Shown here in pieces: positions 2,031 through 25,120 of a stretch of DNA of 38,794 nt. The first letter of the stretch is position 1. The number at the start of each line of letters is the position of its first letter. The notes beneath the pieces were generated by a model that was given only the letters and a program-made list of their open reading frames with translations, did not search any database and was not told the DNA's origin. Position numbers and translations under genes: made by a program. Location of the stretch: NCBI GenBank assembly GCA_027858915.1, contig JAQIBT010000098.1, positions 1 through 38,794 of the forward strand, given 5' to 3'. The stretch comes from Salinisphaera sp. (GTDB lineage: Bacteria; Pseudomonadota; Gammaproteobacteria; Nevskiales; Salinisphaeraceae).

Positions 2031-2288
2031 GTGACGATCACGACGTTTTCGAGTCGAGAGTTCAATCGCGATTGTAGCCGTGCAAAGAAAGCGGCATTGG
2101 AAGGCCCGGTGTTTATTACCGATCGTGGCCGGCCATCACATGTTTTGCTGACAGTTGGCGAGTATCAGCGGATCAGCGGCGAGCGGCTTTCGATCGTCGA
2201 CGCATTGGCTATGCGTGACGGATCGGAGTTCGAGTTCGAGCCGCCCAAGCTAGGTGATGGCTTGTATCGTGCTGCTGATCTTGACTGA
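2031..2288 (+). CDS. Phd/YefM-family antitoxin
   Basis: Encodes 85 residues from a GTG start with a GGAGAGA ribosome site. The N-terminus (TFSSREFNRDCSRAKKAA then GPVFITDRGRPSHVLL and VGEYQRI) is the DNA-binding fold of Phd/YefM prevent-host-death antitoxins. The C-terminal tail, rich in Glu, Phe and Pro (SEFEFEPPKL), is the part expected to wrap the toxin. It overlaps the toxin start in a TGATG, which implies translational coupling. It should neutralise the PIN nuclease and repress the operon with it. Confidence 0.88.
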   Translation: MTITTFSSREFNRDCSRAKKAALEGPVFITDRGRPSHVLLTVGEYQRISGERLSIVDALAMRDGSEFEFEPPKLGDGLYRAADLD

Positions 2289-2716
2289 TGTACTTGTTGG
2301 ATACGAACGTCATTTCGGAAGCTCGGAAGGCCCGGTCGGGTGCTGCGGATCGCCGTGTCGTGCGATGGTTGGAGCGAGCAACCGCAGGCTCGCTATTTGT
2401 CTCGGTGGTGTCTTTGCTGGAATTGGAGTTGGGCGTTCTTCGCATCGAGCGACGCGATTCAGCGCAAGGCGCTCGGTTACGACGCTGGCTGGAAGAGCAG
2501 GTGGTGGCTACGTTTTCCGATCGAATAATCTCCGTAGATGTGTTGGTTGCGCGCCAGACCGCGCGCTTGCACGTGCCCGATCCGCAACCGGAGCGTGACG
2601 CGCTGATTGCTGCGACAGCGATCGTACATGGCATGACGGTCGTGAGCCGGAATGTGGGCGACTTCGAACCGACCGGAGTGTCGCTCATCAATCCCTGGGA
2701 GACGGTTACCGATTAA
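2288..2716 (+). CDS. PIN-domain toxin (VapC/FitB type)
   Basis: Encodes 142 residues. It begins LLDTNVISEARK with the first acidic residue of the PIN active site; further acidic motifs are SLLELELGV, ERDALIAATA and NVGDFEPTG. It ends with the INPW tail typical of FitB-like toxins. PIN toxins are magnesium-dependent ribonucleases that cut tRNA, rRNA or mRNA when freed from the antitoxin. The ATG overlaps the antitoxin stop codon. All active-site acidic positions appear intact, so the module is probably functional. Target RNA cannot be predicted. Confidence 0.9.
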   Translation: MYLLDTNVISEARKARSGAADRRVVRWLERATAGSLFVSVVSLLELELGVLRIERRDSAQGARLRRWLEEQVVATFSDRIISVDVLVARQTARLHVPDPQPERDALIAATAIVHGMTVVSRNVGDFEPTGVSLINPWETVTD

Positions 2717-2904: not shown

Positions 2905-3999
2905 TTACGGCTCGGCGAGCAGCGCGTCGAGCCAGTGGCCGTTGCGACTCGCCTTGGTATTCAGATAACGGGCGTTCTGTGGCGTCAGGCGGCCGTAGAT
3001 ACCGCTGCGGCGGGCAACTTCGATACCGCTCTGGTTGAGCGCATCGAGTTTGCTCGGGTTGTTGGTCAGCAGATCGATATGGGTGATATCGAGCTGCCCC
3101 AGCATGTCGAGTGCGACGTTATAGTTGCGTTCGTCCTCGCCGAACCCCAGCACTTGATCGGCGTCGATCGTATCCAGCCCTTCGTCCTGAAGATGGTAGG
3201 CGCGCATCTTGTTCGCCAGCCCGATGCCACGGCCTTCCTGTGCCAGATACAGCAGCACGCCGCCGCCGCGCCTGGCAATGGCAGCAACGCTGGCGCGCAG
3301 CTGCGGGCCGCAATCGCAGCGCAGGCTGCCGAACAGGTCGCCGGTGAGACAGGCAGAATGCAGACGCACGGGTACCGGGTCCGGCCACTGTGCGGCATTA
3401 CCGATCAGGATCGCGACGTGTTCACGCATGCCGTCGGCTTCACGAAAGATTACGAAGCGCGAATGTTCGGCGTGTTCGAGTGGCACATCGGCTTCGCTGA
3501 CGCGCTTCAGGCGGGCGCCGTCCCGACCATAGGCGGCGATATCGTCTGCTGTGACCGAGAGCCATTCCTGCTCTGCCACGCGCTGGTCGAGCGCCTGTGA
3601 TTGTTCGGCGCCGATCGCTACCGTCAGCGCGGCGGGAATCAGCAGCCCGCGTTGCATCAGGTGAACGGCTGCGCGATCGCCCGCGCCGGTGTCGGACTGG
3701 ATGCGTTGCGCCGACAGGTTCGCCGCCGGCGAGCAGGCCCAGCGAATGACGTCTTCTCGGCTGTCAGTGGCATCCAGCGGCAACCGGGCCTGCTCGTCGT
3801 CGACGTCGATGCCAAGCCGTGCCAGGCGGTGTCGCGTGAGAATCAGCTGCGGTTGACGACCGGTCAGTGCTGGCAGGCTGGCAAAAAGCTCGGAGGCGAG
3901 GTTTTCGATCGGTGCGACGAGTCTATCGCCTTCCGGACTGCGTACGATGACCGGCAGACCACGGCGCAGATCAAAAATAGACCGTTCAATATGCTGCAT
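2905..3999 (-). CDS. ribA: GTP cyclohydrolase II with degenerate N-terminal domain
   Basis: Encodes 364 residues. The C-terminal half (about 205-360) is a complete GTP cyclohydrolase II: HSACLTGDLFGSLRCDCG supplies the three zinc cysteines (C217, C228, C230), followed by YLAQEGRGIGLANKMRAY and LTNNPSKLDAL. The enzyme opens GTP to 2,5-diamino-6-ribosylamino-pyrimidinone phosphate, formate and pyrophosphate. The N-terminal 200 residues sit where bifunctional RibBA proteins carry DHBP synthase, but I see no RREREGDL-type catalytic motif, so this part looks non-catalytic. Such long RibA forms occur in alphaproteobacteria. It is divergent from the RibD-type reductase at 4101 and no other riboflavin genes are near, which suggests a specialised role, though ordinary riboflavin synthesis remains possible. 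Confidence 0.9.
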   Translation of the reverse strand: MQHIERSIFDLRRGLPVIVRSPEGDRLVAPIENLASELFASLPALTGRQPQLILTRHRLARLGIDVDDEQARLPLDATDSREDVIRWACSPAANLSAQRIQSDTGAGDRAAVHLMQRGLLIPAALTVAIGAEQSQALDQRVAEQEWLSVTADDIAAYGRDGARLKRVSEADVPLEHAEHSRFVIFREADGMREHVAILIGNAAQWPDPVPVRLHSACLTGDLFGSLRCDCGPQLRASVAAIARRGGGVLLYLAQEGRGIGLANKMRAYHLQDEGLDTIDADQVLGFGEDERNYNVALDMLGQLDITHIDLLTNNPSKLDALNQSGIEVARRSGIYGRLTPQNARYLNTKASRNGHWLDALLAEP

Positions 4000-4100
4000 T
4001 CATCTACTTCTTTGTTAACCACGCGCGACCAGCGGCGTCCGGGCTGGCGTGCTGACAAACCCCGGTACGAATCGGCTTCTGGCTGGTCGGAGATACCCAC

Positions 4101-4955
4101 ATGATGCCACCAATCGATGAACTCTACGCGTGGCAGATCGTTAGCGATGCACAGGCCATGTTCTCAACCGGGCCCGCGAGCGCCGGCGCCACGATTGCGC
4201 CGGGGCTGACGATCGCGCCCGATGGGCATTGGCAGGCGCAGGGCCAGGTGAGCGCCGAGGCCGCGCGGCTGTTCGATACGCTGCTGCCACTAGCGCTGGC
4301 CGGCCCATGCTGGACGATGGCGCAGCTCGGGCAGAGCATCGACGGTCGGATTGCCACCGAGAGCGGTCATTCGCACTACGTAACCGGCGAGCCAAGCCGT
4401 GTCCATCTGCATCGGCTGCGCGCGCTGGTCGATGCAGTGATCGTTGGCGCCGGCACGGTGGCCGCGGACGATCCGCAGCTGACGGTACGACACGCCGACG
4501 GGCGCAATCCGTTACGCGTGGTGGTCGATCCGTCGGCGCGGCTGGCGCTTGATCGCAAGGTATTCGCTGATCGCGCCGCGCCGACTCTGCATGTCGTGTG
4601 TGCGTCGGCCAAGTCGCCGCCCGGTGTCGAGCAGCTTCGAATGGATGCGCCCGCCGCCGGCATCGATCCCGCGGCGTTGCTGGCAGCGCTGGCCGAACGC
4701 GGCGTGCGGCGGGTACTGGTCGAAGGCGGCGGGGTGACCATCTCCCGTTTTCTGGCGGCGGATTGCCTGGATCGGCTGCATTCGGTGGTAGCGCCGCTGA
4801 TTATTGGCTCGGGCCGGCCGGCGATCAGCCTTGCGCCTATCGCGCATCTCGATGCAGCCCTGCGGCCACCGTGCCGTATTCATCCGATGGGCGAGGATGT
4901 GCTGTTCGATTTTGATCTGCGATCGGGGCCGGGCAGCCCCAGCACGTCGACGTGA
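4101..4955 (+). CDS. Stand-alone RibD C-terminal-type reductase
   Basis: Encodes 284 residues. From about residue 69 it matches the RibD_C/DHFR-like reductase fold: MAQLGQSIDGRIAT, then LRALVDAVIVGAGTVAADDP, NPLRVVVD, and VRRVLVEGGGVTISRF near the NADPH site. The family reduces the ribosyl side chain of GTP-derived pyrimidines. The deaminase domain of classical RibD is absent, replaced by an N-terminal segment of about 65 residues without recognisable motif. The gene diverges from the GTP cyclohydrolase II gene across 101 bases, so the two may share control. Its last 76 bases overlap the convergent methyltransferase gene. It probably acts on the product of the neighbouring cyclohydrolase; this is inference. 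Confidence 0.85.
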   Translation: MMPPIDELYAWQIVSDAQAMFSTGPASAGATIAPGLTIAPDGHWQAQGQVSAEAARLFDTLLPLALAGPCWTMAQLGQSIDGRIATESGHSHYVTGEPSRVHLHRLRALVDAVIVGAGTVAADDPQLTVRHADGRNPLRVVVDPSARLALDRKVFADRAAPTLHVVCASAKSPPGVEQLRMDAPAAGIDPAALLAALAERGVRRVLVEGGGVTISRFLAADCLDRLHSVVAPLIIGSGRPAISLAPIAHLDAALRPPCRIHPMGEDVLFDFDLRSGPGSPSTST

Positions 4956-5752
4956 CCGACCGACAAGACCAGCTCCCCGGCCGCCAGCGCGGTAGATCGG
5001 CGTGCGGCCCAGGCGTCGAAACGTCCGCTCGCCGACCCCGCGGCGGCTCGGGCCCAGCCGGCGAGCAGGAGGGCGGCCAACGGGGCATCGCTGCTGGCCA
5101 ATAGCCAGTGACTGGGCATGGCCGTGATCGAGTAGCCCTGCGCGGCCAGGGTGTTGATCAGCACGCGCGGCGCCTGCGTGCCCAGGGCCATGCCCAGGCC
5201 CTTGTGGCGTTGCTGATCGGCGGCCAGGCGGGTCAGGACCGTGGCATCGTCCGTATCCGCTGCGCCGTGAAAACCAATCTGGCCGTTGACGCTGATCGCA
5301 CACAGCAGCGCCGCTTGCTGCAGGCGACAGGCCGCAACCCATTGGCCGATCCAGTCGGCCGAGACCAGGTCGAGCAAGGCCGATGCGGTGACCAGATCGC
5401 AGCCGGCGATCGCCGGCGCCGGTGCATCAGCCAGATCGAACAAGCGCGTGTGGACGTCGCCCAGATGCGCGTGGCTATCCAGGGAAGTACGGGCTTCTTC
5501 CAGCAGGCCAGTATCCTGATCGAGCAGAATCCAGCGACTGCCAGCGGGCATGAACGGCGCCAGATAGCGGCCATTCGAGCCACGCCCGGCACCGATATCG
5601 ACAATGACGGGCGGTTGCGCAGGCCGAGGCCTGCACTGTAAGAGCCAGCGGGCAGCGGCCTGGGCCAGGCTGTGCGGGCGGCTGCGATGATCGACCGGCT
5701 CGCGCAGTCGCAGCCAGTCGCTGTCGAACACCGCACCGTCGATTGGCGTCAT
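4880..5752 (-). CDS. Class I SAM-dependent methyltransferase
   Basis: Encodes 290 residues. Motif I is VDIGAGRGSNGRYL at about 51-64, followed by an acidic strand end (WILLDQDTGLLEEA) and CDLVTASALLDLVSADW, the usual layout of a Rossmann-fold methyltransferase. Substrate is not apparent. It overlaps the upstream glycosyltransferase by four bases (ATGA) and is the third gene of a tightly coupled operon (pterin-synthase-like, glycosyltransferase, methyltransferase). Its C-terminal 25 residues are encoded antisense to the end of the reductase gene. I infer methylation of the small molecule made by the cluster or of its sugar. Confidence 0.8.
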   Translation of the reverse strand: MTPIDGAVFDSDWLRLREPVDHRSRPHSLAQAAARWLLQCRPRPAQPPVIVDIGAGRGSNGRYLAPFMPAGSRWILLDQDTGLLEEARTSLDSHAHLGDVHTRLFDLADAPAPAIAGCDLVTASALLDLVSADWIGQWVAACRLQQAALLCAISVNGQIGFHGAADTDDATVLTRLAADQQRHKGLGMALGTQAPRVLINTLAAQGYSITAMPSHWLLASSDAPLAALLLAGWARAAAGSASGRFDAWAARRSTALAAGELVLSVGHVDVLGLPGPDRRSKSNSTSSPIG

Positions 5753-6807
5753 GGTGCGGTACCTGACCGATCGAGCGCGCGGGCAAAACGCTGACTCGCC
5801 AGGCGCCAGTCGTCCAGCGTGTTGCGCGCGACGAGCGCGGCCTGGCGAGCACGATCATAGTGCCTGTGGTCGGTGAGCAGTGTGCGCAGCACGCCGGCGA
5901 GTGCAGCTGCGTCGCCCGGCGGCACGGCTGCGCCGGCGTCCGCAGGCAACGTATCGCCCAGCGCGCCGCCGGTGGTGGTGACAACTGGCAGACCGCGCGC
6001 GAGGGCTTCAGTCACCACCATGCCGTAGCCTTCGTAGAACGAGGGCAGTACGAACAGGTCGCTGTCATGATACGCGGCGCCGAGCGCGCTGGGCGACATC
6101 GGGCCGAGGAGTCTGATTCGCTCTGTCAGGCCGTGGTTGACCATGGCTTGTTGGACGGCCGCGACATACGCCGGATCGCGGTCGAGCGCGCCGATGCAGT
6201 CGCAGTGCCAGTCCAGTTCGGCCAGTTCGGCCAGCGCCTCGACCAGTATGGCCTGGCCCTTGCGCGGAATAAGCGTGGCGACGCATAGAAGACGGCCAGG
6301 TGGCCACTGGGCGGCCGCAGGTGCCGCGGGCTCCACGCCGGGCAGCACCACGTCGATACGTGACGGCGCGACACCGTAGTCCTGCAGGCGGCGCGCAGTG
6401 AAATGGCTGGTGACAATCACCTGCTCAACCTGGGCCAGGGCGGCGGTCTCGCGTTCGCGAAATGCGGCCGCGCGGCTTAAATCCAGGCCGTACTCGTCGG
6501 CCAGCGGATGATGGACCAGGGCCACCAGCCGCAGACGCTCTCGGTGTCTGGCGACGATCTCGCCGAGATCACCCAGCGCCAACCCATCGATCACGACCAG
6601 GCTGCGATCTGGCACCGCGGCAAGCGTTTGGTCCATCGCGCGTCGGGCGGTTTGGTCGGCCTCCGGGAACCGGCCGGCCAGGCCGATTATCTCTATCTGC
6701 CAGCCGAACTCGGCGATGCCGGCGGCGATCCGGGCGTCGTAGAGATAGCCGCCGGTATATTGCTCGGGATTGCCGGCCACGAGCAGCAGGGCCCGGCGCG
6801 TCCTCAC
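5749..6807 (-). CDS. Family 4 glycosyltransferase
   Basis: Encodes 352 residues with a GT-B fold. The N-terminal acceptor domain carries an early glycine loop (NPEQYTGGYLYDARI). The C-terminal nucleotide-sugar domain shows CVATLIPRKGQ, then VLPSFYEGYGMVVTEAL with the EX7E pair at about E259 and E267. GT4 enzymes are retaining transferases using UDP-, GDP- or ADP-sugars. No membrane segment or polysaccharide locus is present, and the gene is translationally coupled on both sides (4-base overlaps) to the pterin-synthase-like and methyltransferase genes. Glycosylation of a soluble small molecule is therefore more likely than envelope work. The sugar donor cannot be read from sequence. Confidence 0.87.
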   Translation of the reverse strand: MRTRRALLLVAGNPEQYTGGYLYDARIAAGIAEFGWQIEIIGLAGRFPEADQTARRAMDQTLAAVPDRSLVVIDGLALGDLGEIVARHRERLRLVALVHHPLADEYGLDLSRAAAFRERETAALAQVEQVIVTSHFTARRLQDYGVAPSRIDVVLPGVEPAAPAAAQWPPGRLLCVATLIPRKGQAILVEALAELAELDWHCDCIGALDRDPAYVAAVQQAMVNHGLTERIRLLGPMSPSALGAAYHDSDLFVLPSFYEGYGMVVTEALARGLPVVTTTGGALGDTLPADAGAAVPPGDAAALAGVLRTLLTDHRHYDRARQAALVARNTLDDWRLASQRFARALDRSGTAP

Positions 6808-7202
6808 AGATCGGCTTCGAAGCGGGCCCAGGCAATATGCGATTCCGACAGCGTGACCCCCAGCCGCGTGATGCCGCGGGCGCCGTCGCCAAGGCGTCCG
6901 TCGGCAATCGCGCCGGCCATGAGCTCGAATACCACGCCGGCCATGTATTCGGTGGTGGTGTTATGACCGGCCAGCGCTGGATCGTCGTCGAGATTATGCA
7001 AGGTGAACTGCCCCAGCATCTGTTTCAGCGCGTCTGCGGCTGCGCCGATATCGACCACCAGATCATCGCTGTCCAAGACTGCCCGGTAGAACGTGACGTC
7101 GACGATATAAGTCGCGCCGTGCAGCGCCTGGGCAGGGCCGAACGTCGGGCTGGAGAAACTATGGGCGATCATCATGTGATCGCGTACGGTCAGGCTGTAC
7201 AT
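6804..7202 (-). CDS. 6-pyruvoyl-tetrahydropterin synthase/QueD family protein, atypical active site
   Basis: Encodes 132 residues, the right length for the PTPS/QueD T-fold family. Recognisable are IAHSF (zinc His), LHGATYIVDVTF, VVDIGAAADALK, the TLHNLDD His and a late Glu in VTLSES. Compared with QueD and PTPS, the HGH zinc motif reads HGA, and the catalytic Cys expected just before it is Ala. An additional His in RDHMM might compensate for metal binding. The family converts dihydroneopterin triphosphate to 6-pyruvoyl- or 6-carboxy-tetrahydropterin; with these changes a different reaction is likely. No queC, queE or folE is nearby, so queuosine or biopterin synthesis is not supported. It is the first gene of the three-gene overlapping operon. 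Confidence 0.83.
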   Translation of the reverse strand: MYSLTVRDHMMIAHSFSSPTFGPAQALHGATYIVDVTFYRAVLDSDDLVVDIGAAADALKQMLGQFTLHNLDDDPALAGHNTTTEYMAGVVFELMAGAIADGRLGDGARGITRLGVTLSESHIAWARFEADL

Positions 7203-7244
7203 CCTTGTCTCACGGTCGCCGAAATTTTATCGAGATGCATGACT

Positions 7245-7499
7245 TCAGTAATGGTAACGAAGCTGAGCGATAAGGATCGATTCGTCGTCTATCTTATAGA
7301 TAACTCTGTCCGCTTCGTTTATTCGCCGTGACCAATAGCCAGACAAAGCGTGCTTAAGAGGTTCCGGTTTCCCGATGCCTTCGAATGGATCTCGGGCAAT
7401 ATCCTTGATAAGCGCATTTATACGCTTTAAAGCTTTTCGATCAGTTTTCTGCCAGTAGAGATAGTCCTCCCACGCCTGCTCAGAGAACACAAGCTTCAT
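7245..7499 (-). CDS. yoeB: YoeB/Txe-family ribosome-dependent mRNA interferase
   Basis: Encodes 84 residues, the same length as E. coli YoeB and strongly similar along its whole length (DYLYWQKTD, INALIKDI, GKPEPLKH, GYWSRRI, and the RYHY end). The known catalytic residues are all present: Glu in KPEPL, Arg in ADRVIY, and the terminal His-Tyr. The toxin cleaves mRNA in the ribosomal A site. It overlaps the antitoxin gene by four bases. The module sits between the pterin-synthase-like and dehydrogenase genes and is visibly less GC-rich than its neighbours, which suggests acquisition by transfer. Confidence 0.95.
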   Translation of the reverse strand: MKLVFSEQAWEDYLYWQKTDRKALKRINALIKDIARDPFEGIGKPEPLKHALSGYWSRRINEADRVIYKIDDESILIAQLRYHY

Positions 7500-7747
7500 T
7501 CGATTAGCTTGCGTTCGGTTCCTCGGCCTGCCTCAAGATCGTTGATCGCAGCCAATAAACGTCTTGTATTCTTCGGACTTCGAAGCAAGTACGCTGTCTC
7601 TTCCAACGCTGCGTAATCATCCATGGACATCATGACTACCGCTCCTTCGCCCTTTCGCGTGATCGCTACCGGCGCATGATCGTTGCACACCCTTTCCATG
7701 GTCTTCGCCAAGTTGCCGCGGGCGGATGTGTAGCTAATACTCTCCAT
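7496..7747 (-). CDS. yefM: YefM antitoxin
   Basis: Encodes 83 residues from the ATG at 7747; the open frame extends upstream, but through the operator and without family similarity. The N-terminus, MESISYTSARGNLAKTMERV, followed by APVAITRKGEGAVVMMSMDDY and ETAYLLRSPKN, is diagnostic of YefM. The C-terminal part (LLAAINDLEAG) is the toxin-binding tail. It binds YoeB and represses the operon through the palindrome just upstream. Confidence 0.95.
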   Translation of the reverse strand: MESISYTSARGNLAKTMERVCNDHAPVAITRKGEGAVVMMSMDDYAALEETAYLLRSPKNTRRLLAAINDLEAGRGTERKLIE

Positions 7748-7773
7748 GATTCTAACCTCAGTCCCTGTGCAGA

Positions 7774-7787
7774 ACACTGTACAGTGT
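7774..7787. promoter_or_regulatory. YefM operator palindrome
   Basis: ACACTGTACAGTGT is a perfect 14-base palindrome centred on TGTACA (7778-7783), 26 bases before the yefM start. A partial second copy (TGTACC, 7785-7790) adjoins it. The E. coli YefM-YoeB operator also has palindromes with a TGTACA core, so the match is specific to this antitoxin family. Confidence 0.85.
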
Positions 7788-7819
7788 ACCACCAGCCCAA
7801 TAGAGCGCTCCAGTTGATC

Positions 7820-8016
7820 GCCCAAAGCGCTGCCATGCTTCGGGTTCCCTCTGCGGCCTTCGGTCGCGCCGGCGGCAATTCACCCCTTGGGCGTAGCGCT
7901 GAGCAGCGGAGGCCGGAAGGGTTGAAGCAGCCGGGTGTTTGAGCGCAGCGAGTTCCGGCTGCGCCCTGGCTTGGGCAAGCAAGAGAAGTGACTCGCGCAG
8001 CAGCGCGAAACCCAAA
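7820..8016. repeat. Possible degraded intergenic repeat element
   Basis: The stretch between the yefM operator and the dehydrogenase stop codon has no gene. Read on the minus strand it begins GGGTTTCGCGCTGCTGCGCG followed by an AGTCACTTCTCTTGCTTGCC-like run. This resembles an interspersed sequence often seen between genes in beta- and gammaproteobacteria. The resemblance is from memory. Its presence next to the toxin-antitoxin genes suggests both arrived, or were tolerated, at the same insertion point. Confidence 0.4.
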
Positions 8017-8018
8017 GC

Positions 8019-8999
8019 CTAGTCGTAGACGATACGCTGGCACAGTGTGCTGTCGCGTGGGTCGGCCAGGCGCGCCATGACCGACGGTAGATCGTCGAAC
8101 CGGGCGTCGTCCGGCGCGATCAGTGCATCGAAGCGTGCATCGCCGAGCAGGGAGACGGCCAGTGCGAGTCGGCGAGCATGCGTCCAGCGTGCACGATGCG
8201 TCGGTGCCACCGTGCCGACCTGCGATGAGCGCAGGTCCAGACGCCGCGCATGAAACGCGCCGCCCAGCGGTACGTTGACCGGCCGATCGCCGTACCAGCT
8301 CATCTCCAGAACGGTTGCTTCAAAACCGGCCAGTGCCATGGCGGTTGTCAGCCCCGCGCCGCGGCCACTGGCGTGGATGACCAGATCGCGGTCGGTGCTG
8401 GCCTCCTCTGGTAAGGCAAAACCTGTTCCCAGGGCGCGCGCCAATGCCTGTTTGTTGGGATCGATATCCACCAGTTCCACATCTGCGCCGGCCAGGCTGG
8501 CGCACAGCGCAGCAGTCAGCGCGCCCAGCACGCCGGCACCGACAACGGTTACGCGATCGCCGATCGACGGCAAGCTATCCCAGCAGGCGTTGATTGCGGT
8601 TTCCATGTTGGCGGCCAGTACCGCGCGTTCGGCTGGCACCGAGGCCGGTATTGGCACCGCGGCGTCGGCCGGTACGACATACAACGTCTGGTGCGGATAC
8701 AGACAGAACACCTGCCGACCGATCCACTCGGCGGGCCCGTCTTCAACGATGCCCACGTTGGCATAGCCGTGTTTGACCGGGCCCGGCAAGCGGCCGGCCT
8801 GGAACGGCGCGCGCATGCGCTCATATTCGCTGGCCGGCACGTGGCCGCCGTAGACCAGCGTTTCGGTGCCGCGGCTGATCGCCGAATAGCGCGTACGTAC
8901 CAGCAGCTGATCGTCGGCAGGCAATTCCAGCGACTCGCTAGCGATATAGCTTCGGTTGGGCGGCGCAAGCCAGAGCGCACGGGTAGGAATCGACGCCAC
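8019..8999 (-). CDS. MDR-family (zinc-type) alcohol dehydrogenase-like protein
   Basis: Encodes 326 residues from a GTG start with a poor ribosome site; no better in-frame start is visible before an upstream stop. The N-terminal GroES-like part shows YSAISRGTETLVYGG and HGYANVGIVEDG, and the Rossmann domain has VTVVGAGVLGALTAAL at about 150-165 followed by an acidic VELVDID. The structural-zinc cysteine cluster of classical alcohol dehydrogenases is absent. The SRGTE pattern recalls the BchC-like branch that oxidises or reduces hydroxyethyl groups on tetrapyrroles. It lies upstream of the pterin-synthase-like operon, separated from it only by yefM-yoeB and a repeat-like stretch, and probably was its first gene. 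Likely role: oxidoreductase step on the cluster's product (inference). Confidence 0.82.
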   Translation of the reverse strand: MASIPTRALWLAPPNRSYIASESLELPADDQLLVRTRYSAISRGTETLVYGGHVPASEYERMRAPFQAGRLPGPVKHGYANVGIVEDGPAEWIGRQVFCLYPHQTLYVVPADAAVPIPASVPAERAVLAANMETAINACWDSLPSIGDRVTVVGAGVLGALTAALCASLAGADVELVDIDPNKQALARALGTGFALPEEASTDRDLVIHASGRGAGLTTAMALAGFEATVLEMSWYGDRPVNVPLGGAFHARRLDLRSSQVGTVAPTHRARWTHARRLALAVSLLGDARFDALIAPDDARFDDLPSVMARLADPRDSTLCQRIVYD

Positions 9000-16456: not shown

Positions 16457-17677
16457 TCATTTGACCAGCTGATTGAGATTGAATACCGGAAGCAGAATCG
16501 CCAGTACGATCAGCAGTACCACACCGCCCATAGCTAGAATGACGGCGGGACCGAGTATGCCCATCACGCCTTGGCGCAGTGTTTCCACCTCGCGCTCCTG
16601 GTGATCGGCGGCGCGCCCCAGCATCATGTCGAGCGCGCCGGACATCTCGCCGTTGGCGATCATATGTAGCGTGATCGCGGGGAAAAACCGCTCGCGGCCC
16701 AACGCCTTGTGGATGGCCTCGCCCTCGCGCACCCGCGTCGCCGCGCGTCGGATCGCATCCTGCATCGGCAGATTGGTCACGACGTCTGCGCCGATGATCA
16801 TGGCGTCCAGTGCGGGCACACCACTGCTGGTCAGGATCGACAGCGTACGCGTAAAGCGGGCTGTGTTCACGCCCCGCGCGAAGCGCCCGATCAGCGGTAT
16901 CCGCAGGACAAAGCCATGCCATCGGCGCCGGAAAGTCGGGCGTCGAAGGCCGTAGAGGAAGGCTACAATAAGGATGCCGACCACTACGCCGATCAACAGC
17001 CCCCAGCTGCGCAGGAAATCGCTGAGCGCGATCAGGCCGGTAGTCAGCGCCGGCAGCTGGGCGTGCACGCTGTTGAACACGTGCACCAGCTTGGGAACGA
17101 CCGTCGACAGCAGCGCGATCACGATACCAATGGAGACCACGGTCAGAAACGCTGGATAGATCAGCGCCGCCAGAATCTTCTGGCGCATGGCCTGTTGTTC
17201 CTCGACGTAGTCGGCCAGCCCGTTGAGCACTTCGTCGATTCGCCCCGAGGACTCGCCGGCTGCCGCGGTCGCCCGGTACAGCTCGTCGAAACTGTTGGGA
17301 AAGCCGGCCAGCGCATCGGCGAGCGTATTGCCCTCGACCACATGGGAGCGCACGCCGACGATGATTTTCTGTACCCGATCGCTGTCGGTCTGCTCGGCCA
17401 CTGCCTTCAGGGCTTCTTCCATCGGCAGGCCGGCATGGGCGAGGGTAGATAGCTGACGCGTGAACAGGGACAGCTCGGTCACGCTCATACCGCGCTGGAA
17501 CGAGAACAGGGATCTGCCTTTCCCGACCGCGCGTCGGTCGGCTACTTCGCGTACATCAATCGGGGTGAAGCCGCGCTCGCGCAGCTGAGCTCGGATGGCG
17601 CGTGCGGCATCGCCTTCCAGCACGCCTTTTTTCTGGCGGCCGCGTTGATCAAGCGCGGTGTATTCGAAGGCGCCCAC
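16457..17677 (-). CDS. gspF: Type II secretion inner-membrane protein F
   Basis: Encodes 406 residues, normal length, from a GTG start five bases after gspE. Two repeated T2SSF cytoplasmic domains are visible (LFTRQLSTLAHAGLPMEEAL and FTRTLSILTSSGVPALDAM), with membrane helices near 170-195, 225-245 and 375-400. It is the polytopic platform protein at the centre of the assembly machine. Confidence 0.96.
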   Translation of the reverse strand: MGAFEYTALDQRGRQKKGVLEGDAARAIRAQLRERGFTPIDVREVADRRAVGKGRSLFSFQRGMSVTELSLFTRQLSTLAHAGLPMEEALKAVAEQTDSDRVQKIIVGVRSHVVEGNTLADALAGFPNSFDELYRATAAAGESSGRIDEVLNGLADYVEEQQAMRQKILAALIYPAFLTVVSIGIVIALLSTVVPKLVHVFNSVHAQLPALTTGLIALSDFLRSWGLLIGVVVGILIVAFLYGLRRPTFRRRWHGFVLRIPLIGRFARGVNTARFTRTLSILTSSGVPALDAMIIGADVVTNLPMQDAIRRAATRVREGEAIHKALGRERFFPAITLHMIANGEMSGALDMMLGRAADHQEREVETLRQGVMGILGPAVILAMGGVVLLIVLAILLPVFNLNQLVK

Positions 17678-17682
17678 TTGGC

Positions 17683-19248
17683 TCAGCCCTCACGCGTCAC
17701 GCGCAGGACTTCTTCCAGTGTCGTGCGGCCGCGCAGCACGTTGGCGCGGCCATCGGCGCGGATGCTGGGAGTCGCCTTGCGAGCATGGGCTTCCAGTGCC
17801 TGCTCGGACACCTGCTCGTGAATCATGTTGCGCATTTCGTCGTCTATGACGACGAGCTCGTAGATACCGGTACGACCACGAAAGCCGCTGTGACCGCATT
17901 TTTCGCAACCACCAGGCTTGTGGAGTGTCGGCGGACTGTCCGGATCGGCCTTGAGCAGTTCGCACTCGCGCCGATCGGCGGTGTAGGGCACGCGACATTC
18001 GTTGCAAAGCGTGCGCACCAGGCGCTGCGCCATGATGCCGATCAGCGACGAGGACAACAGGAACGGTTCCACCCCCATATCGCGCAGGCGGGCGACCGCG
18101 CCCACCGCTGTATTGGTATGCAGGGTCGAGAGCACTAGATGTCCGGTCAGCGACGCCTGCACGGCAATATCCGCGGTTTCGAGATCGCGGATTTCGCCGA
18201 TCATGACGACGTCGGGATCCTGGCGCAGAATCGCGCGCAGACCGCGTGCGAAGCTCATGTCGACCTTGGAATTGACCTGGGTCTGGCCGATGCCGTCGAG
18301 GTAATACTCGATCGGATCCTCGACCGTCATGATATTGCGCGAACGATCGTTGATACGCGTGATGCCGGCATACAGCGTCGTGGTCTTGCCGGAACCGGTG
18401 GGCCCGGTGACCAGGATAATGCCGTGTGGCTTGTGGATCAGTTCGTCGATCGTATCCAGCGTGTCGGTGGGCATGCCCAGCTGTGGCAGATCCAGCCGAC
18501 CGGCCTGTTTGTCCAACAGACGCAGTACGACGCGCTCGCCGTTACCCGACGGGATGGTGGATACGCGCACGTCCACCGGACGGCCGGCGATACGTACCGA
18601 GATACGCCCATCCTGCGGAATACGTTTTTCGGCAATATCCAGCTTTGCCATTACCTTTACGCGCGAAATCAGGCGTGGGGCGAGCTGGCGCGGGGGATTG
18701 AGCACTTCACGCAGCACGCCGTCGACGCGGAAACGCACGGTCAGGCGTGCCTCGAACGGTTCGATATGGATATCGGAGGCGTTTTCCTTGATCGCTTCGG
18801 TGAGCAGCGCGTTGATCAGGCGGATAATCGGTGCGTCGTCGGAGGACTCCAGCAGATCGGCCGGCTCCGACAGGGCACGCGCGGCGTCGGTCAGGTCCAT
18901 ATCATCGTCCATGCCCTCGACGATCTGGGTCGACTCGGCGTCGCGCGCCTCGTAGTCGTTCTGCAGCATGGCATCGAAGGCGCTGGCCGCGACGCGCTGG
19001 ATGCGCAACTTGCGGCCGGTATGCCGGCGCACCTCGAGAATGGCGCCAGCGTTGAGTGGCTCTCGACAGATCACTTCAAGCGCGTCTGAGTGCGGATCCG
19101 CGACCAGCATCACGCCGTGCCGCTTGGCAAAGGCGAAGGGCAGCCGATCGATGCCGGGCGCGTGCGGTGCACGGTCCAGCTCGACCCGCTCGCCCAGCGG
19201 CGTATCGCCGATTGGTGCAAGACTCAGCTGTTCTGCGTTGTCACTCAT
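17683..19248 (-). CDS. gspE: Type II secretion ATPase E
   Basis: Encodes 521 residues with a GGAGG ribosome site. Walker [15 protein letters not shown] is at about 280-293; the Asp box region ([19 protein letters not shown]), Walker B ([12 protein letters not shown]) and His box ([14 protein letters not shown]) follow the family order. A zinc tetracysteine domain (CNECRVPY and [13 protein letters not shown]) lies near the C-terminus. GspE hydrolyses ATP in the cytoplasm to drive pseudopilus assembly. The N-terminal GspL-binding domain is present. Confidence 0.97.
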
Positions 19249-19272
19249 GAGACAGCCTCCGCTGCTGGTAGA

Positions 19273-21474
19273 CTACTGATTCGGCCCGAACTGATCGCCG
19301 CGACGTTTGCCACCATTCGATGGCGGCAAAGCGCCTTGGCCAGATTGCTGGTCGTTATCCGGATTATCGAATTTCTCGGAGGAATTTATCCCCCCTTCGA
19401 ACTTGTCCATGGGAGGCAGCTGCGGCCGACTCCGATTGCCCATCAGAGGAATGCTCTCCTTGCTCTGCCCCTGCTGCAGGTGGCGGATATATCTATATTT
19501 CTGGGCGCTGTAATAGTTGGCCTCGCCGTCACCCCGCAAAATCGTTGGCCGAATGAAGTTCAACAGATTGCGTTTGCTCTTCGACGTCGAGTTGTAACGG
19601 AACAGGGCGCCCAGAAGGGGAATACGACTTAGCACCGGCACTGCCTGACGTGTGACCTGCACGTTGTCGTCGATCAGGCCACCCAGCACCAGAATCTGGC
19701 CGTTCTGTATTTCGACGGCGGTATTGATCGAACGATTATTGGTGATCAGATCGACGCTGCTCTGTTGCTGCGTCTGCGCGGCGATGCTCGATATCTCCTG
19801 ATTGATGCTCAGCTGGATCGTATCCCCCGCACTGATCTGGGGCGTGAAGCTCAGCACGAGGCCGACATCCTTGCGCTGAACCGTATTGAACGGGTTCACA
19901 CCGTTGCCGCCCAACGAGCCGCCGTTGGTATAGCTGCCCGTCACGAACGGAACCTGCTTGCCGACCTTGATCTCGGCTTCTTCGTTATCGCGCGTGATCA
20001 GCGACGGGGTAGACAGAATATTGGTGTCTGTATCGCCAGACAGCGCGTTCAGGAGCAGGGCGAATTTCGTGCCACCGCTCGAAATGCTGCCCAGGCCGAT
20101 ATTGAGTCCTTGCTGGATCAGCCCCAGCGGTGTGCCATTCGCGGCAAGCTGCTTGATTGAACTGAGCGTGTTCGGATCCAGGATGCTGGCTGCTGTCGGG
20201 CCATTGTTGCGCAAGGAGGCCAGATTGACGCCGAGCTTGCGCGAGCGTGACAGGCTGACTTCTGCGATGATCGCCTCGACCAGCACCTGGCCACGACGGA
20301 TATCCAGTTTCTTGATGACTTTCTTGATACCGGCCATCTTGGTGGCCGGTGCCGTAACAATCAGCGCATTAGCGGCCGACTCGGCGATCACGCTGATGCC
20401 GTCCTTGCTGGCTTTCCCGGAAATGCCGGCGGTCGAGGTGGCGCTGTTGCGGTTGATGTTGCTGGATGAGCCAAAGCTGCTGCCACTACTGCCGCCACTG
20501 CTGTTGAAGCCATTGCTGTTGCCAAAACCGCTGCTGTTGTTGCTGATGCTGCGACGGCTGCCGCGACTGCTGCCCGAGGAATAACTCTGGCCGGTGGCAT
20601 AGGCCTGAAGCACCGGCGCCAACTCCTCGGCGTCGGCATAGTTGAGATAGAAAACCTGCGTGCCACCGCTGTTATCGCTCTTGGTGTCCATATCGGCGAT
20701 CACACCGCGCAGTCGCGCACGATCGTTGGCGTTGCCACTGATAATGACGCTGTTGGTACGCTCGTCCGGCACCACCGTATAGTCGACGTTCTTGCTGTTG
20801 CCCTGCAGCTTGTCAATTGCTTCGCTGACGTCTTTTGCGCTGGCATGTTGCAGATGAATGATCGTGGTTTTCTTGTTGCCGTTGGCATCAATGCGATGCA
20901 CGATTTTTGTCAGCCGCGCCACGTTTGCCTCGCGATCAGAGATGATCAGCGTATTGGAAGCAGCGTAGGCGGCCAGATGCCCGTACTGCGGCACCAGCGG
21001 CCGCAGAATCGGTACCAGCTGATCAGCGGGCACGTTGGTGACGTGGATCACCTTGGTGACGATGTCTTCGTCGGTATGCGTGCCGTTGCCACCGAAGCCG
21101 CCATCCTGCTTGGCGCTGATCTGCGGGATGATCTTGATTACCTCGCCCGAGGGCACGGCTGCATAACCGTGGACGTCAAGCACCGACAAGAAAGTCTGAT
21201 ACAGCTCGGCCGGCGTCATCGACTGATTCGACAGGACCGTCACGTTGCCCTTCACCCGCGGGTCGACCACGAAATTACGCCCGGTCACCTCACTGACCGT
21301 AGCGATCAGCGTCGTGATGTCGGCGTCCTTGAGATTGAGGGTGAACGAATCGTTGCTGCCCGACACGCCCGCAGGCGATTTCTGGGCAAGGGCGCTGGTC
21401 GCAAACAGGCAGCAGCCTGCCAGGACACCGGCCCGGAACAGGCGAGCCTGGAACAAACGAACGATGATGGTCAC
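19273..21474 (-). CDS. gspD: Type II secretion outer-membrane secretin D
   Basis: Encodes 733 residues from a GTG overlapping the gspC stop. A signal peptide (hydrophobic core AGVLAGCCLFATSALA) precedes N0 (FTLNLKDADITTLIATVSEV), N1-N3 repeats and the secretin core (VPFVTGSYTNGG, then PVLSRIPLLGALFRY). In the N3 region, about residues 296-350, there is a Ser/Gly/Asn-rich insert of some 55 residues. The C-terminal tail after the barrel is long and rich in Gly, Gln and Pro and could be where a pilotin binds, but no pilotin gene is here. Confidence 0.97.
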   Translation of the reverse strand: MTIIVRLFQARLFRAGVLAGCCLFATSALAQKSPAGVSGSNDSFTLNLKDADITTLIATVSEVTGRNFVVDPRVKGNVTVLSNQSMTPAELYQTFLSVLDVHGYAAVPSGEVIKIIPQISAKQDGGFGGNGTHTDEDIVTKVIHVTNVPADQLVPILRPLVPQYGHLAAYAASNTLIISDREANVARLTKIVHRIDANGNKKTTIIHLQHASAKDVSEAIDKLQGNSKNVDYTVVPDERTNSVIISGNANDRARLRGVIADMDTKSDNSGGTQVFYLNYADAEELAPVLQAYATGQSYSSGSSRGSRRSISNNSSGFGNSNGFNSSGGSSGSSFGSSSNINRNSATSTAGISGKASKDGISVIAESAANALIVTAPATKMAGIKKVIKKLDIRRGQVLVEAIIAEVSLSRSRKLGVNLASLRNNGPTAASILDPNTLSSIKQLAANGTPLGLIQQGLNIGLGSISSGGTKFALLLNALSGDTDTNILSTPSLITRDNEEAEIKVGKQVPFVTGSYTNGGSLGGNGVNPFNTVQRKDVGLVLSFTPQISAGDTIQLSINQEISSIAAQTQQQSSVDLITNNRSINTAVEIQNGQILVLGGLIDDNVQVTRQAVPVLSRIPLLGALFRYNSTSKSKRNLLNFIRPTILRGDGEANYYSAQKYRYIRHLQQGQSKESIPLMGNRSRPQLPPMDKFEGGINSSEKFDNPDNDQQSGQGALPPSNGGKRRGDQFGPNQ

Positions 21475-22331
21475 TGGAAATTCACCTCGACCGTTCGGGT
21501 CTTGCCGCCGCTCTCGAGCGTTACCGTGGCATGCGAGGCATTGGCCAGGTTCCCAAGCAGTCGGAGTGATGCCGCCGGGTCGTTCAGCGGCTTGCCATTG
21601 ATTGCTGTCACAAGCTCCCCACTTTTCAAACCCGCTTTCTTGAACAAGGACCTATCCGCCCCCGGATAGATTCGATAGCCGACGAGACTGCCGTTTTGCT
21701 CGGCCGGCTGCAAGCGGATGAAGCGGCGGGCGGCGCTTGGATCAGACAGGATCTTGCGGCGTGCATCGCCCAGGTCCTGGGCCAGCGCTTGGTTGAGCTG
21801 CGGCGTGCGCTTGATACCCGTCATGGCCTGAGCTTTTTTGACGCTCTCCAGCGTCAACATCTCGTAGTGCCCGCTGCGGTCCAGAATAACGCGGTTGGCG
21901 TAGACCTCGTAGAGTTTGACCCCTTTGATCACGGCCTGGCCAACGCGATAGCTGTCCTGTTTGCCCTGCGGGCCCTTGATCAACGCCCGTGACCGGTCGC
22001 CCTGCGAGTCCGACACGATGCCGGTGAGCGTAAGGTTGAGATGCGTCTCCGGCGCGTTGATCACTTTCGGCTTGGCGGCTGCCGCATCGGCCGCGCTCTG
22101 TTTGCCGAACAGATGCGCGCCGGCGATCGCGTCGATATCCAGCGTGTGGCTGCTGCCGGACCGGTCCGGTGCCGAACTGGCCATCGGCGCGATTGCGTTG
22201 GTCGGCGTCGGCCATACCAGCCAGAACAGACGCGCCGCGGCGAGCGCGACCAGCACCACGAGGATCAGGTTGGCGATATCGGGAGCACGCGCCAGCCAGC
22301 GCTGAGCGTCGCGGGAGAGTTCAACTGTCAT
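21471..22331 (-). CDS. gspC: Type II secretion system protein C
   Basis: Encodes 286 residues. A membrane helix at about 17-38 (IANLILVVLVALAAARLFWL) is followed by the homology region (IAGAHLFGKQ, then LNLTLTGIVSDSQGDRSRAL) that contacts the secretin, and a C-terminal PDZ-type domain (FKKAGLKSGELVTAINGKPL) thought to select substrates. It is the first gene of the gspC-N operon and diverges from gspA across 111 bases. Confidence 0.95.
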   Translation of the reverse strand: MTVELSRDAQRWLARAPDIANLILVVLVALAAARLFWLVWPTPTNAIAPMASSAPDRSGSSHTLDIDAIAGAHLFGKQSAADAAAAKPKVINAPETHLNLTLTGIVSDSQGDRSRALIKGPQGKQDSYRVGQAVIKGVKLYEVYANRVILDRSGHYEMLTLESVKKAQAMTGIKRTPQLNQALAQDLGDARRKILSDPSAARRFIRLQPAEQNGSLVGYRIYPGADRSLFKKAGLKSGELVTAINGKPLNDPAASLRLLGNLANASHATVTLESGGKTRTVEVNFQ

Positions 22332-22442
22332 TCGGCGGAGTCTAGTCCAGTAATGGGCGGCATCATATGACGATTAGCGCTACGTTTGCGGGCCTGTTCG
22401 CGCAGGTTAGACTGACGTGATCGGCGCGACGCTATTCGTTTC

Positions 22443-24344
22443 ATGTATCTGAGCTATTTCGGCTTTAAAGAATATCCGTTTTCGGTCACCCCCGATCCGG
22501 CGTTCCTCTATCTCAGCGCCAGTCATCGCGAAGCCCTGGGCCATTTGCTCTACGGTGCCGGGGAACACGGCGGATTCGTGGCCCTGACCGGTGAAGTGGG
22601 CACCGGCAAGACCACCCTGATCCGGGCGCTGGTGCATGACGATCTGCCGGATCTGCAGATTGCGCTGTGCTGGAATCCGCATCTGGGCACCAACGAGTTC
22701 GTGGCTACGGTATGCGACGAATTGGGGGTGACCTACGAGCCGGGCCAGCACGCTACGCTAAAAGCCCTGGTAGACCGCCTCAATGCGCATCTGCTGAAGA
22801 CCCATGCCGCCAACCGGCGCACCGTGCTGATTGTGGATGAAGCACAGAATCTGTCGCGTGACGTGCTCGAGCAGCTGCGCCTGCTGACCAACCTGGAAAC
22901 CCATAAGGAAAAACTGCTGCGAATCATTCTCGTCGGGCAGCCTGAGCTCACCGATCTGCTGGCGCGCCACGATCTGCGCCAGCTATCGCAACGGATCACC
23001 GCACGCTTCCATTTGCGGCCGCTGGGCCTGGCCGAGACCCGTGCTTATATTCAGCATCGGCTGGAATGCGCGCAGGGCCCGCAGCATCTGTTCTCCGGCA
23101 GCGCCGTGATGGCTGCGTGGCTGGTGACGCGGGGCGTGCCCCGACTCATCAACATGGTCTGCGAGCGCGCCCTGATGGGAGGTTATGCCCACGCGCGTTC
23201 GACGATCGGCCCGGCCACCGTGCTGAGGGCGGCTGCCGAAACGCTACCGCCGAGCCGCAGACGCCGATTGGCCGGCAGGTGGCGCCTGGCTGCGCCGGTC
23301 GCCGCCTTGGCGGTCGTTGTGACGGTGTCGGCGCTGGTGTGGCAGCCAGCCATGTCGCTGTCGGCAATTGACCGCTGGATTCCCTATCTCGGGCAGGCGG
23401 GGCATCCGGCGCTGGCCCATGAATCACCCAAAGCTGTTCACACGACCAACGACGAGGGTGGCGACTCTGACAAGAGCGATGCTGCCTCGCCTGCGAAAAC
23501 CGACGCCGCGCCCGACAAGAGGAGCAATACTCAGGCGGATAAGACAAGCCAGCCGCCAGTCGCCAGGAGCGTCAGATCGGCCGCCGGTGCCGGCGATTCA
23601 CCCAGTGGTTCAGCAAAAGCGCCTAAGAGCGCGAGCGACCAGGCCGTCGCTGGCCAGACCGCATCGGCGACCACCTCGGTATTGAGCGCCAGCGGCGGTG
23701 AAAGCACTAGCGCTGACGCGGCCGGGAGCAAATCAAAAAAGCCGCAGGAGGGAATCCCGAAAGGCAACGCGGACATCAATCAACTGTTGCGGTTATGGGG
23801 CGTGTTTGGCGCCCAGGTTCGGACCGACTGTGCGTCGCTGCACGTCGGTGATCTGCGTTGCCTGGCCGATAGCGGTGACTTCGCGACGCTCAAACGGTAC
23901 AACCGACCGGCGCTGCTCGTACTTCAGCGCGGAAATACCACACAGACCGTGCTGCTCAGCGCAATCAAGGGAGATACGGCGACGCTGATGGGCGCTCAGG
24001 GCACGCGCGAAGTCAAGCAGGCGCAACTGCTGAAATCCTGGACCGGCCGTTTTCAGGTGGTCTGGCGTTCCGACTCCAGAGTCGGGCTCATTCAGCCGGG
24101 CGCGGTAGGCGATGCCGTGGTCTGGCTGCGGCGTCGCTTGTTGCAGATAGACCACAAGAATCCGGATTCGCAGGTCGGAACGCCGTCGCCGGTCTACGAT
24201 GCGGCGTTGGAAAAACGCCTCAAGACTTTTCAACGCGCGCACGGACTGGCGGCCGATGGAATGGCTGGCCCGCGCACACAGATGATGCTCAATGGCGCCG
24301 TTCCTTCTCCGGGTTCGCCGTCGTTGCACGCCGTGAGTAAATAG
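22443..24344 (+). CDS. gspA: Type II secretion AAA ATPase GspA/ExeA
   Basis: Encodes 633 residues. Starts MYLSYFGFKEYPFSVTPDP, the ExeA signature. Walker A GEVGTGKTT is at about 50-58, Walker B VLIVDEAQNL at 128-137. A membrane helix follows near 283-301, then a long Ala/Ser/Lys linker (about 320-440), a degenerate C39-peptidase-like segment (CASLHVGDLRCLADSGDFAT) and a C-terminal peptidoglycan-binding domain (RLKTFQRAHGLAADGMAGPRT). With GspB it binds peptidoglycan and helps insert the secretin. Divergent from gspC, which supports a joint role. Confidence 0.93.
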   Translation: MYLSYFGFKEYPFSVTPDPAFLYLSASHREALGHLLYGAGEHGGFVALTGEVGTGKTTLIRALVHDDLPDLQIALCWNPHLGTNEFVATVCDELGVTYEPGQHATLKALVDRLNAHLLKTHAANRRTVLIVDEAQNLSRDVLEQLRLLTNLETHKEKLLRIILVGQPELTDLLARHDLRQLSQRITARFHLRPLGLAETRAYIQHRLECAQGPQHLFSGSAVMAAWLVTRGVPRLINMVCERALMGGYAHARSTIGPATVLRAAAETLPPSRRRRLAGRWRLAAPVAALAVVVTVSALVWQPAMSLSAIDRWIPYLGQAGHPALAHESPKAVHTTNDEGGDSDKSDAASPAKTDAAPDKRSNTQADKTSQPPVARSVRSAAGAGDSPSGSAKAPKSASDQAVAGQTASATTSVLSASGGESTSADAAGSKSKKPQEGIPKGNADINQLLRLWGVFGAQVRTDCASLHVGDLRCLADSGDFATLKRYNRPALLVLQRGNTTQTVLLSAIKGDTATLMGAQGTREVKQAQLLKSWTGRFQVVWRSDSRVGLIQPGAVGDAVVWLRRRLLQIDHKNPDSQVGTPSPVYDAALEKRLKTFQRAHGLAADGMAGPRTQMMLNGAVPSPGSPSLHAVSK

Positions 24345-24346
24345 TC

Positions 24347-25120
24347 GTGTCTTATCTCATCGACGCCCTCAAGAAAGCCGAGCGTGAGCGTCATGCGCGA
24401 CGTGACGGCAATTTGCGGCAGGCATCGGCAGAGGATGCTTCGCTGGGTGGTGGCCGCGGCCAACGATGGCTGGCCGCGATTGTCGTGCTGCTGGTGGCAA
24501 TCAATGGCGGCCTGATCTTCTATCTCTGGCATCCTGCGGAGCGCGAAAACAGTCTGCAAGGGTCGGATACAACGGCACAGGAATCCAGACCCGGAGTGGC
24601 TGGCGCCGCCGGGGCGTCGAATGCGGCCAGCAGTTCTCGAACGAGGGCCGCAGGGCCGGCTGCATCGGATAAGCCACCGTTGGCCAACGACCAGTCGTCG
24701 CACACGAGTGCAGCGGACGCGGCTGGGAATCCAGAGTCAGCTGATAGCCAGCTGGCAGCGCCCTCGCGCCCGCCTGGCGAATCGGACGCGGGATCGACTC
24801 GGTTTTCTGCCACGTCACAAAAAAACTCGAACGATCGCGGCGACGAAAACGCGCCGGAGAATGGCAATCAGCCAAGCGATGAGAGTCGCGACTCGAATCT
24901 CCTGGATCAGTCGCAGACTTCGGACGTGCCCGAGATTCGGATCAACGGCCAGCTGTTCAGCAGCGTGCCCGGGCGCAGTTTCATTCTGGTCAACGGGCGT
25001 CGATATCATGAAGGCCAGCGGCTTGCCGCCGGGCCGGCAGTGGAAAGTATCGGCCCAACCGGCGCGATCCTGCGCTACCACGGACAGCGTTATCACGTGT
25101 CCGGACCCGGAGGCGGCTGA
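24347..25120 (+). CDS. gspB: Type II secretion protein GspB
   Basis: Encodes 257 residues from a GTG start two bases after gspA. MSYLIDALKKAERER is the conserved cytoplasmic start, followed by a membrane helix (about 45-63). A long low-complexity periplasmic linker then leads to a C-terminal T2SSB domain (EIRINGQLFSSVPGRSFILV, then VESIGPTGAILRYHGQRYHV). It forms the GspAB complex that links peptidoglycan and secretin. It overlaps the next gene in a TGATG. Confidence 0.92.
   Translation: MSYLIDALKKAERERHARRDGNLRQASAEDASLGGGRGQRWLAAIVVLLVAINGGLIFYLWHPAERENSLQGSDTTAQESRPGVAGAAGASNAASSSRTRAAGPAASDKPPLANDQSSHTSAADAAGNPESADSQLAAPSRPPGESDAGSTRFSATSQKNSNDRGDENAPENGNQPSDESRDSNLLDQSQTSDVPEIRINGQLFSSVPGRSFILVNGRRYHEGQRLAAGPAVESIGPTGAILRYHGQRYHVSGPGGG

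Follow-up and report, generated by a model that had tools for sequence, protein, structure and literature searches.

The window considered here, the whole 38,794-nucleotide stretch that was analysed (Salinisphaera sp., assembly GCA_027858915.1, contig JAQIBT010000098.1), is contig C112 of a 169-contig genome of 4.33 Mb that is 99.6% complete. It harbors six neighbouring genes that encode a GTP cyclohydrolase II (GCHII; RibA), a RibD_C-type pyrimidine reductase, an S-adenosylmethionine (SAM)-dependent methyltransferase, a GT4 glycosyltransferase, a protein of the 6-pyruvoyltetrahydropterin synthase (PTPS) fold and a medium-chain dehydrogenase/reductase (MDR). These six genes are a real, widely conserved unit and not a chance neighbourhood. 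The model proposed here, which we consider rather probable, is that they constitute a pathway of their own, which leaves riboflavin synthesis ahead of the deamination step and leads to a methylated, glycosylated pterin-type compound. No published product of the gene set was found in the open literature, subscription papers not being covered.

A preliminary description of this DNA had placed the six genes together, three of them joined by 4-base overlaps, and this layout was found again in the sequence, the GT4 gene overlapping its neighbours at both ends by 4 bases (GTGA and ATGA). The co-occurrence of the families, for which a neighbourhood search had been proposed, holds across phyla. PTPS relatives are present in 17 of 41 genomes (the window's own and 40 relatives): in 14/14 members of the genus, own genome included, in 1/3 other family members and, as weak matches, in 2 genomes elsewhere in the order. 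The order MDR–PTPS–GT4–methyltransferase–reductase–RibA, with the reductase gene on the reverse strand relative to the others, is kept in 14/14 other family loci, which are all the strong loci fetched besides the window. A scan of species-level genomes confirmed at least 582 stretches encoding a PTPS relative, and the best 80 of these made up a wider set whose counts lean towards conservation, as they are the most similar loci. MDR and GT4 genes lie alongside the PTPS gene in 80/80 of them, a methyltransferase gene in 77/80, a reductase gene in 72/80 and RibA in 42/80, some contigs ending early. These 80 loci cover at least four phyla, and the relatives reach Gemmatimonadota, Acidobacteriota and Actinomycetota. 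Because of their similarity, 398 genomes were also drawn evenly across the phylum to offset this bias; 47 of them gave PTPS matches, 27 strong (window included), and at the 26 strong loci besides the window MDR adjoins in all 26 and GT4 in 24. At three weak matches that were fetched, none of the eight other profiles matched.

The gene set is also found on plasmids. Twenty plasmid records carry a PTPS relative, and five of them were inspected gene by gene. All six families stand side by side on an Agrobacterium and a Rhizobium plasmid, so that the alphaproteobacterial gene sets mentioned in the preliminary description do exist. The Streptomyces fungicidicus plasmid carries MDR, PTPS, GT4, methyltransferase, a creatininase and RibA, the reductase being unlisted in its incomplete gene table, and the Microbacterium and Thiodictyon plasmids carry MDR, PTPS, GT4, methyltransferase and reductase, with no RibA within the stretch. 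Among viral contigs, six pattern matches to close relatives were obtained and none was confirmed. A tree of 79 MDR rows, in which 20 forks stay open and the region near the root is weakly supported, does not settle the number of cluster transfers; some metagenome bins may moreover be misbinned, such as Alcaligenaceae bins inside the Salinisphaera group and a Natrialbaceae contig inside Halomonas. In a Mycobacterium bin (L118:9074-10432), the RibA and reductase matches lie in one open reading frame of 452 residues, and the methyltransferase gene is on the opposite strand. A cyclopropane synthase was considered as a pathway gene and rejected, being found in just 8/80 loci, with three of the matches weak.

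RibA matches PF00925 with 187.6 bits (cut-off 23.3) and is extended at its N-terminus by about 160 residues; it is NF006456-like, with a score under the cut-off of that model. The residue equivalent to E. coli Tyr105, which is linked to full GCHII activity, is Tyr in the window protein, as it is in 52/56 other cluster RibA proteins by pattern and in three more by eye; the protein of Halomonas halmophila (L054:14207-15400) has Ile. No other PF00925 match exists in the window genome, whose rib operon, on contig C16 (L039 290-3618), contains ribH, ribE and ribD by Pfam and lacks ribBA. The genes on either side of this operon were identified by eye as nusB- and nrdR-like, and ribB stands alone on contig C138. 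In a related genome (G012, L156), the same operon keeps a ribBA-type gene, recognised by eye and with a GCHII match at the same place. The cluster enzyme is likewise the only GCHII in 7/15 cluster-bearing family genomes, one of these seven being a single contig and two others being merely 81% and 87% complete. As it is so often the sole GCHII, while ribB, ribD, ribE and ribH stay in the window genome, the cluster RibA is probably a true GCHII that produces 2,5-diamino-6-ribosylamino-4(3H)-pyrimidinone 5'-phosphate (DARoPP). It probably serves riboflavin synthesis too in the window genome, since there is no other cyclohydrolase II; loss of ribBA from the rib operon would make riboflavin depend on it. 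The family member G014 has a strong RibA match of cluster-type length (C1:649938-650435) and no PTPS match, and this gene is possibly a remnant of the cluster.

These results bear on the preliminary description in different ways. The dedicated pathway that it proposed is supported by the co-occurrence of the families and by the rib genes elsewhere in the genome, but the separate rib genes, whose completeness it proposed to check, lack a second GCHII, and the view of RibA as a surplus copy, which it implied, fails in this genome. It had also reasoned that RibA and the reductase, if both were sole copies and complemented riboflavin auxotrophy, would point to a chance neighbourhood: RibA is the sole copy, whereas the reductase is not the genome's only RibD_C protein.

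The reductase matches PF01872 with 147.3 bits, and RibD_C is the only domain found in it, the deaminase domain being missing. In an alignment with 2b3z, its Gln falls on the specificity Lys of RibD, and among the cluster reductases readable at this position (83 of 86) there are 78 Gln, 3 His, 2 Ser and no Lys, while the RibD of the same genome carries Lys. According to one study, this Lys, which is residue 151 in Bacillus and 152 in E. coli, gives RibD its preference for the deaminated pyrimidine, the same position is Thr in fungi and Asn in archaea, and the yeast T35K replacement switches the preference to the deaminated substrate (PMC3631187). Lack of both the specificity Lys and the deaminase domain suggests a branch from riboflavin synthesis in which the 2-amino group is retained. 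The archaeal and fungal reductases (2azn, 6p8c, Rib7) are also stand-alone RibD_C proteins without Lys, and 6p8c is the best solved match (E 3.5e-24); the cluster reductase differs from them in having Gln instead of Asn or Thr, and in being longer at the N-terminus by about 70 residues that match no Pfam family. The riboflavin pathway thus has the RibA and RibD_C families and an early intermediate in common with the cluster, which differs from it in lacking the deaminase domain, RibE and RibH, in the Gln for Lys exchange, and in adding the PTPS, MDR, GT4 and methyltransferase genes. In toxoflavin biosynthesis, too, a methyltransferase works alongside RibA- and RibD-like enzymes, but this parallel, drawn in the preliminary description, is a loose one, as the cluster has no deaminase; PTPS, MDR and GT4 are additional in the cluster.

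The nearest solved relative of the PTPS-fold protein is SCO6650 of Streptomyces coelicolor (PDB 3d7j, E 8.3e-57), which belongs to the same family over positions 1-131 of 132. The structure study of SCO6650 reportedly found no zinc and no PTPS activity, with the pterin-type pocket kept. The cluster protein scores 32.3 bits against the QueD model, whose cut-off is 89.25. A survey of 121 members (the window with the 14 family, 80 wider and 26 phylum-sample loci), read against a QueD-like reference (L037), revealed Ala in 121/121 both where QueD has its Cys and, as Ala30, where it has the third zinc-binding His; His14 and His28 are invariant in 121/121, Asn takes the place of a further QueD His in 119/121, and Glu120, at the pterin-anchoring position, is invariant in 121/121. 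In QueD and PTPS these columns hold the catalytic Cys, the zinc-binding His residues and the pterin-anchoring Glu. By its residues the cluster protein, called PTPS/QueD-like in the preliminary description, is neither QueD nor PTPS, and the strict conservation of the altered site speaks for selection for another role. The residues likewise contradict the annotation as 6-carboxytetrahydropterin synthase that the protein bears in the five plasmid records, four of them with a queuosine term. The 2-amino group that would survive the reductase step is the one recognised by a pterin-anchoring Glu.

The best NCBIfam model for the MDR protein is TIGR01202 (BchC), at 48.7 bits far under the cut-off of 291.25; BchC oxidises a secondary alcohol. 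The predicted structure has a predicted local distance difference test (pLDDT) score of 94.2, and 7 of its first 10 structure matches are polyol-type dehydrogenases by title, with Z from 31.6 to 28.9 across the 50 rows listed, which is a weak indication of a polyol-type identity.

The model therefore assigns a step to each protein. RibA would open GTP to give DARoPP, and the reductase, without the Lys that gives RibD its preference for the deaminated substrate, would act on DARoPP itself and reduce it to a 2-amino ribityl pyrimidine phosphate, leaving the guanine-type 2-amino-4-oxo ring intact. That ring would be bound by the PTPS-fold protein, in which the pterin-anchoring Glu is kept and the PTPS/QueD catalytic residues are not. 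Family membership and residues support these three steps. The MDR protein could then oxidise a side-chain secondary alcohol, and a bond-making step in the PTPS fold, probably ring closure, could give the pterin-type compound, to be finished as a methylated glycoside by the methyltransferase and GT4. Methylation and glycosylation of the product, as the preliminary description had it, are inferred from the gene families only. A creatininase-family protein may, as BrbF does, deformylate an intermediate, and in the window genome RibA would be shared with riboflavin synthesis.

Several observations weigh against this model. Polyol dehydrogenases normally need a catalytic zinc, and the conserved zinc-ligand positions are missing from MDR: position 42 is Ser in 24/24, and [HY]GY stands where the sorbitol-type zinc polyol dehydrogenase has its GHE zinc-ligand motif (correspondence by eye). 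RibA was not found in 38/80 loci, some of whose contigs end early, and there the precursor would have to be the product of a housekeeping GCHII or another compound. With the Tyr of RibA kept, there is no obvious role for the creatininase. FolE was not found in the window genome but FolE2 is present, so that folate synthesis does not depend on a second route to pterins, and folate need was rejected as a reason for the route. Lastly, a distant BrbF homologue, Metdi4691, failed to complement (PMC9478397).

Clustering and profile searches of the neighbourhoods, with Pfam names, revealed further genes in the loci of relatives: a creatininase-family gene beside RibA, a CDP-alcohol phosphatidyltransferase gene divergent from MDR, and a gene for an LPG_synthase_TM membrane protein after the methyltransferase, often with YceI. 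The creatininase gene adjoins RibA in 14/14 family loci. The creatininase of the window genome sits on contig C123 (L155:8436-9296); it shares 68-72% identity with the five cluster-side proteins that match it best and 38% with a creatininase from outside the cluster in another genome. With the 12 of the 80 wider loci that have under 7 kb downstream left out, the remaining 68 comprise 36 with both RibA and creatininase, 22 without either, 7 with creatininase alone and 3, all actinobacterial, with RibA alone; the association has a Fisher value of 5.5e-9, kinship ignored. With no flank cut, creatininase is found in 36/42 loci with RibA and 5/38 others. It could be argued that the creatininase is the partner of a crippled RibA, as reported for SCO6655, but this idea is not supported, as RibA keeps its Tyr. 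The cluster-type creatininase may be likened, as a putative formamidase, to BrbF; BrbF of Sinorhizobium meliloti (SMc02977) is a creatininase-family protein linked to GCHII-type chemistry, whose gene adjoins marR- and cobW-like genes and not a cluster like this one (PMC9478397).

The other added genes are at the root of the best-placed alternative, which we nevertheless regard as unlikely. According to it, the product is lipid-linked or exported: after glycosylation of the GTP-derived ring, the CDP-alcohol phosphatidyltransferase would attach it to a lipid and the LPG_synthase_TM protein would flip it across the membrane; YceI and cytochrome b561 would take part in its transport or oxidation, and it might serve as a membrane redox cofactor. 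Among 100 sequences compared, the transferase was found in 73, LPG_synthase_TM in 65-66 (depending on the query), YceI in 32, a sulfatase in 13 and cytochrome b561 in 7, and in 73 loci with enough flank the first two are present together in 52 and both missing in 15. These counts suggest lipid attachment or export in many hosts; the last two genes were rejected as core genes. No strong match to the transferase was obtained in 4/11 genus genomes searched (the window genome, G005, G007 and G010), which nonetheless keep the cluster. The transferase is therefore not core, and lipid attachment as a core step was rejected for the window genome. A bolder version of the pathway, more doubtful still, combines both ideas into a pterin route without GTP cyclohydrolase I, whose product would be a lipid-joined membrane redox cofactor in many hosts. 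In this version, RibA would make DARoPP, the reductase would reduce C1' of the sugar and MDR would oxidise C2'; these two redox reactions would together stand in for the Amadori rearrangement, which FolE carries out within a single enzyme, and the zinc-less PTPS fold would close the ring to a dihydroneopterin-type monophosphate, to be methylated and glycosylated.

It is improbable that the genes are instead a second module for riboflavin or secreted-flavin supply, like the RibBA/BrbF modules proposed for Sinorhizobium, with PTPS, GT4 and methyltransferase acting on a flavin-type by-product. RibA as the sole GCHII and the loss of ribBA from the rib operon agree with it, as does the service of a creatininase-family formamidase to riboflavin in Sinorhizobium (PMC9478397); yet the other genes stay at the 38 loci where RibA was not found, the reductase has no RibD Lys, and ribE, ribH and ribB are not in the cluster. 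A 7-deazapurine or queuosine-like route on a QueD homologue has the plasmid label in its favour and is very improbable given the low QueD score and the invariant Ala at the Cys and one zinc-His column; QueC and QueE were not named among the conserved neighbours, though no search aimed at them was made. Chance assembly of unrelated genes, for which the loci without RibA might speak, is refuted by the order kept in the family and by the MDR gene beside every strong phylum-sample match.

The features of the window discussed here are listed below.

Coordinates of the six cluster genes and of adjoining genes in the window
Feature	Position	Strand	Basis or remark
RibA, GTP cyclohydrolase II	2905-3999	-	PF00925, NCBIfam, sole genome match
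RibD_C-type pyrimidine reductase, without deaminase domain	4101-4955	+	PF01872; alignment to 2b3z and 2azn; residue survey
Class I SAM-dependent methyltransferase, own family	4880-5752	-	Weak Pfam; model and structure match; 27-row alignment A2
GT4 glycosyltransferase, GTG start	5749-6807	-	PF13692/PF00534
PTPS-fold protein, SCO6650 family	6804-7202	-	PF01242, 67.3 bits; 3d7j match; 121-member survey
MDR dehydrogenase, predicted zinc-less, BchC-like, polyol-dehydrogenase fold	8019-8999	-	TIGR01202, model, structure matches, residues
YoeB toxin	7245-7499	-	Between PTPS and MDR
YefM antitoxin	7496-7825	-	Between PTPS and MDR
VapC-like PIN protein	2288-2716		Adjoins RibA

The methyltransferase and reductase genes overlap tail-to-tail at 4880-4955, and similar overlaps of this pair are seen in distant hosts (L035:13407-13479 and L159:9165-9236), the lengths being about 72-76 bases among the three. 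The YefM-YoeB pair is not part of the pathway; the gap that holds it between MDR and PTPS is present in the window and in 0/14 other family loci. The VapC-like PIN gene occupies, beside RibA, the place of the creatininase gene in family relatives. This pair, the PIN gene and the normal place of the creatininase are points beyond the preliminary description. Further along, at 16457-25120, lie type II secretion genes (GspF, GspE, GspD, GspB) and one for an AAA/peptidoglycan-binding protein. Rfam searches returned tRNAs only, three in the window and one in seven scanned loci of the 80, with no riboswitch clue.

The gene set is widespread, with strong PTPS matches in 27 of the 398 evenly drawn genomes of the phylum. 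If the proposed pathway is true, the cyclohydrolase II product would have a further fate besides flavins and toxoflavin, through steps that can be tested singly, and this would be a lineage that seems to depend for its riboflavin on a RibA taken over from a different pathway.

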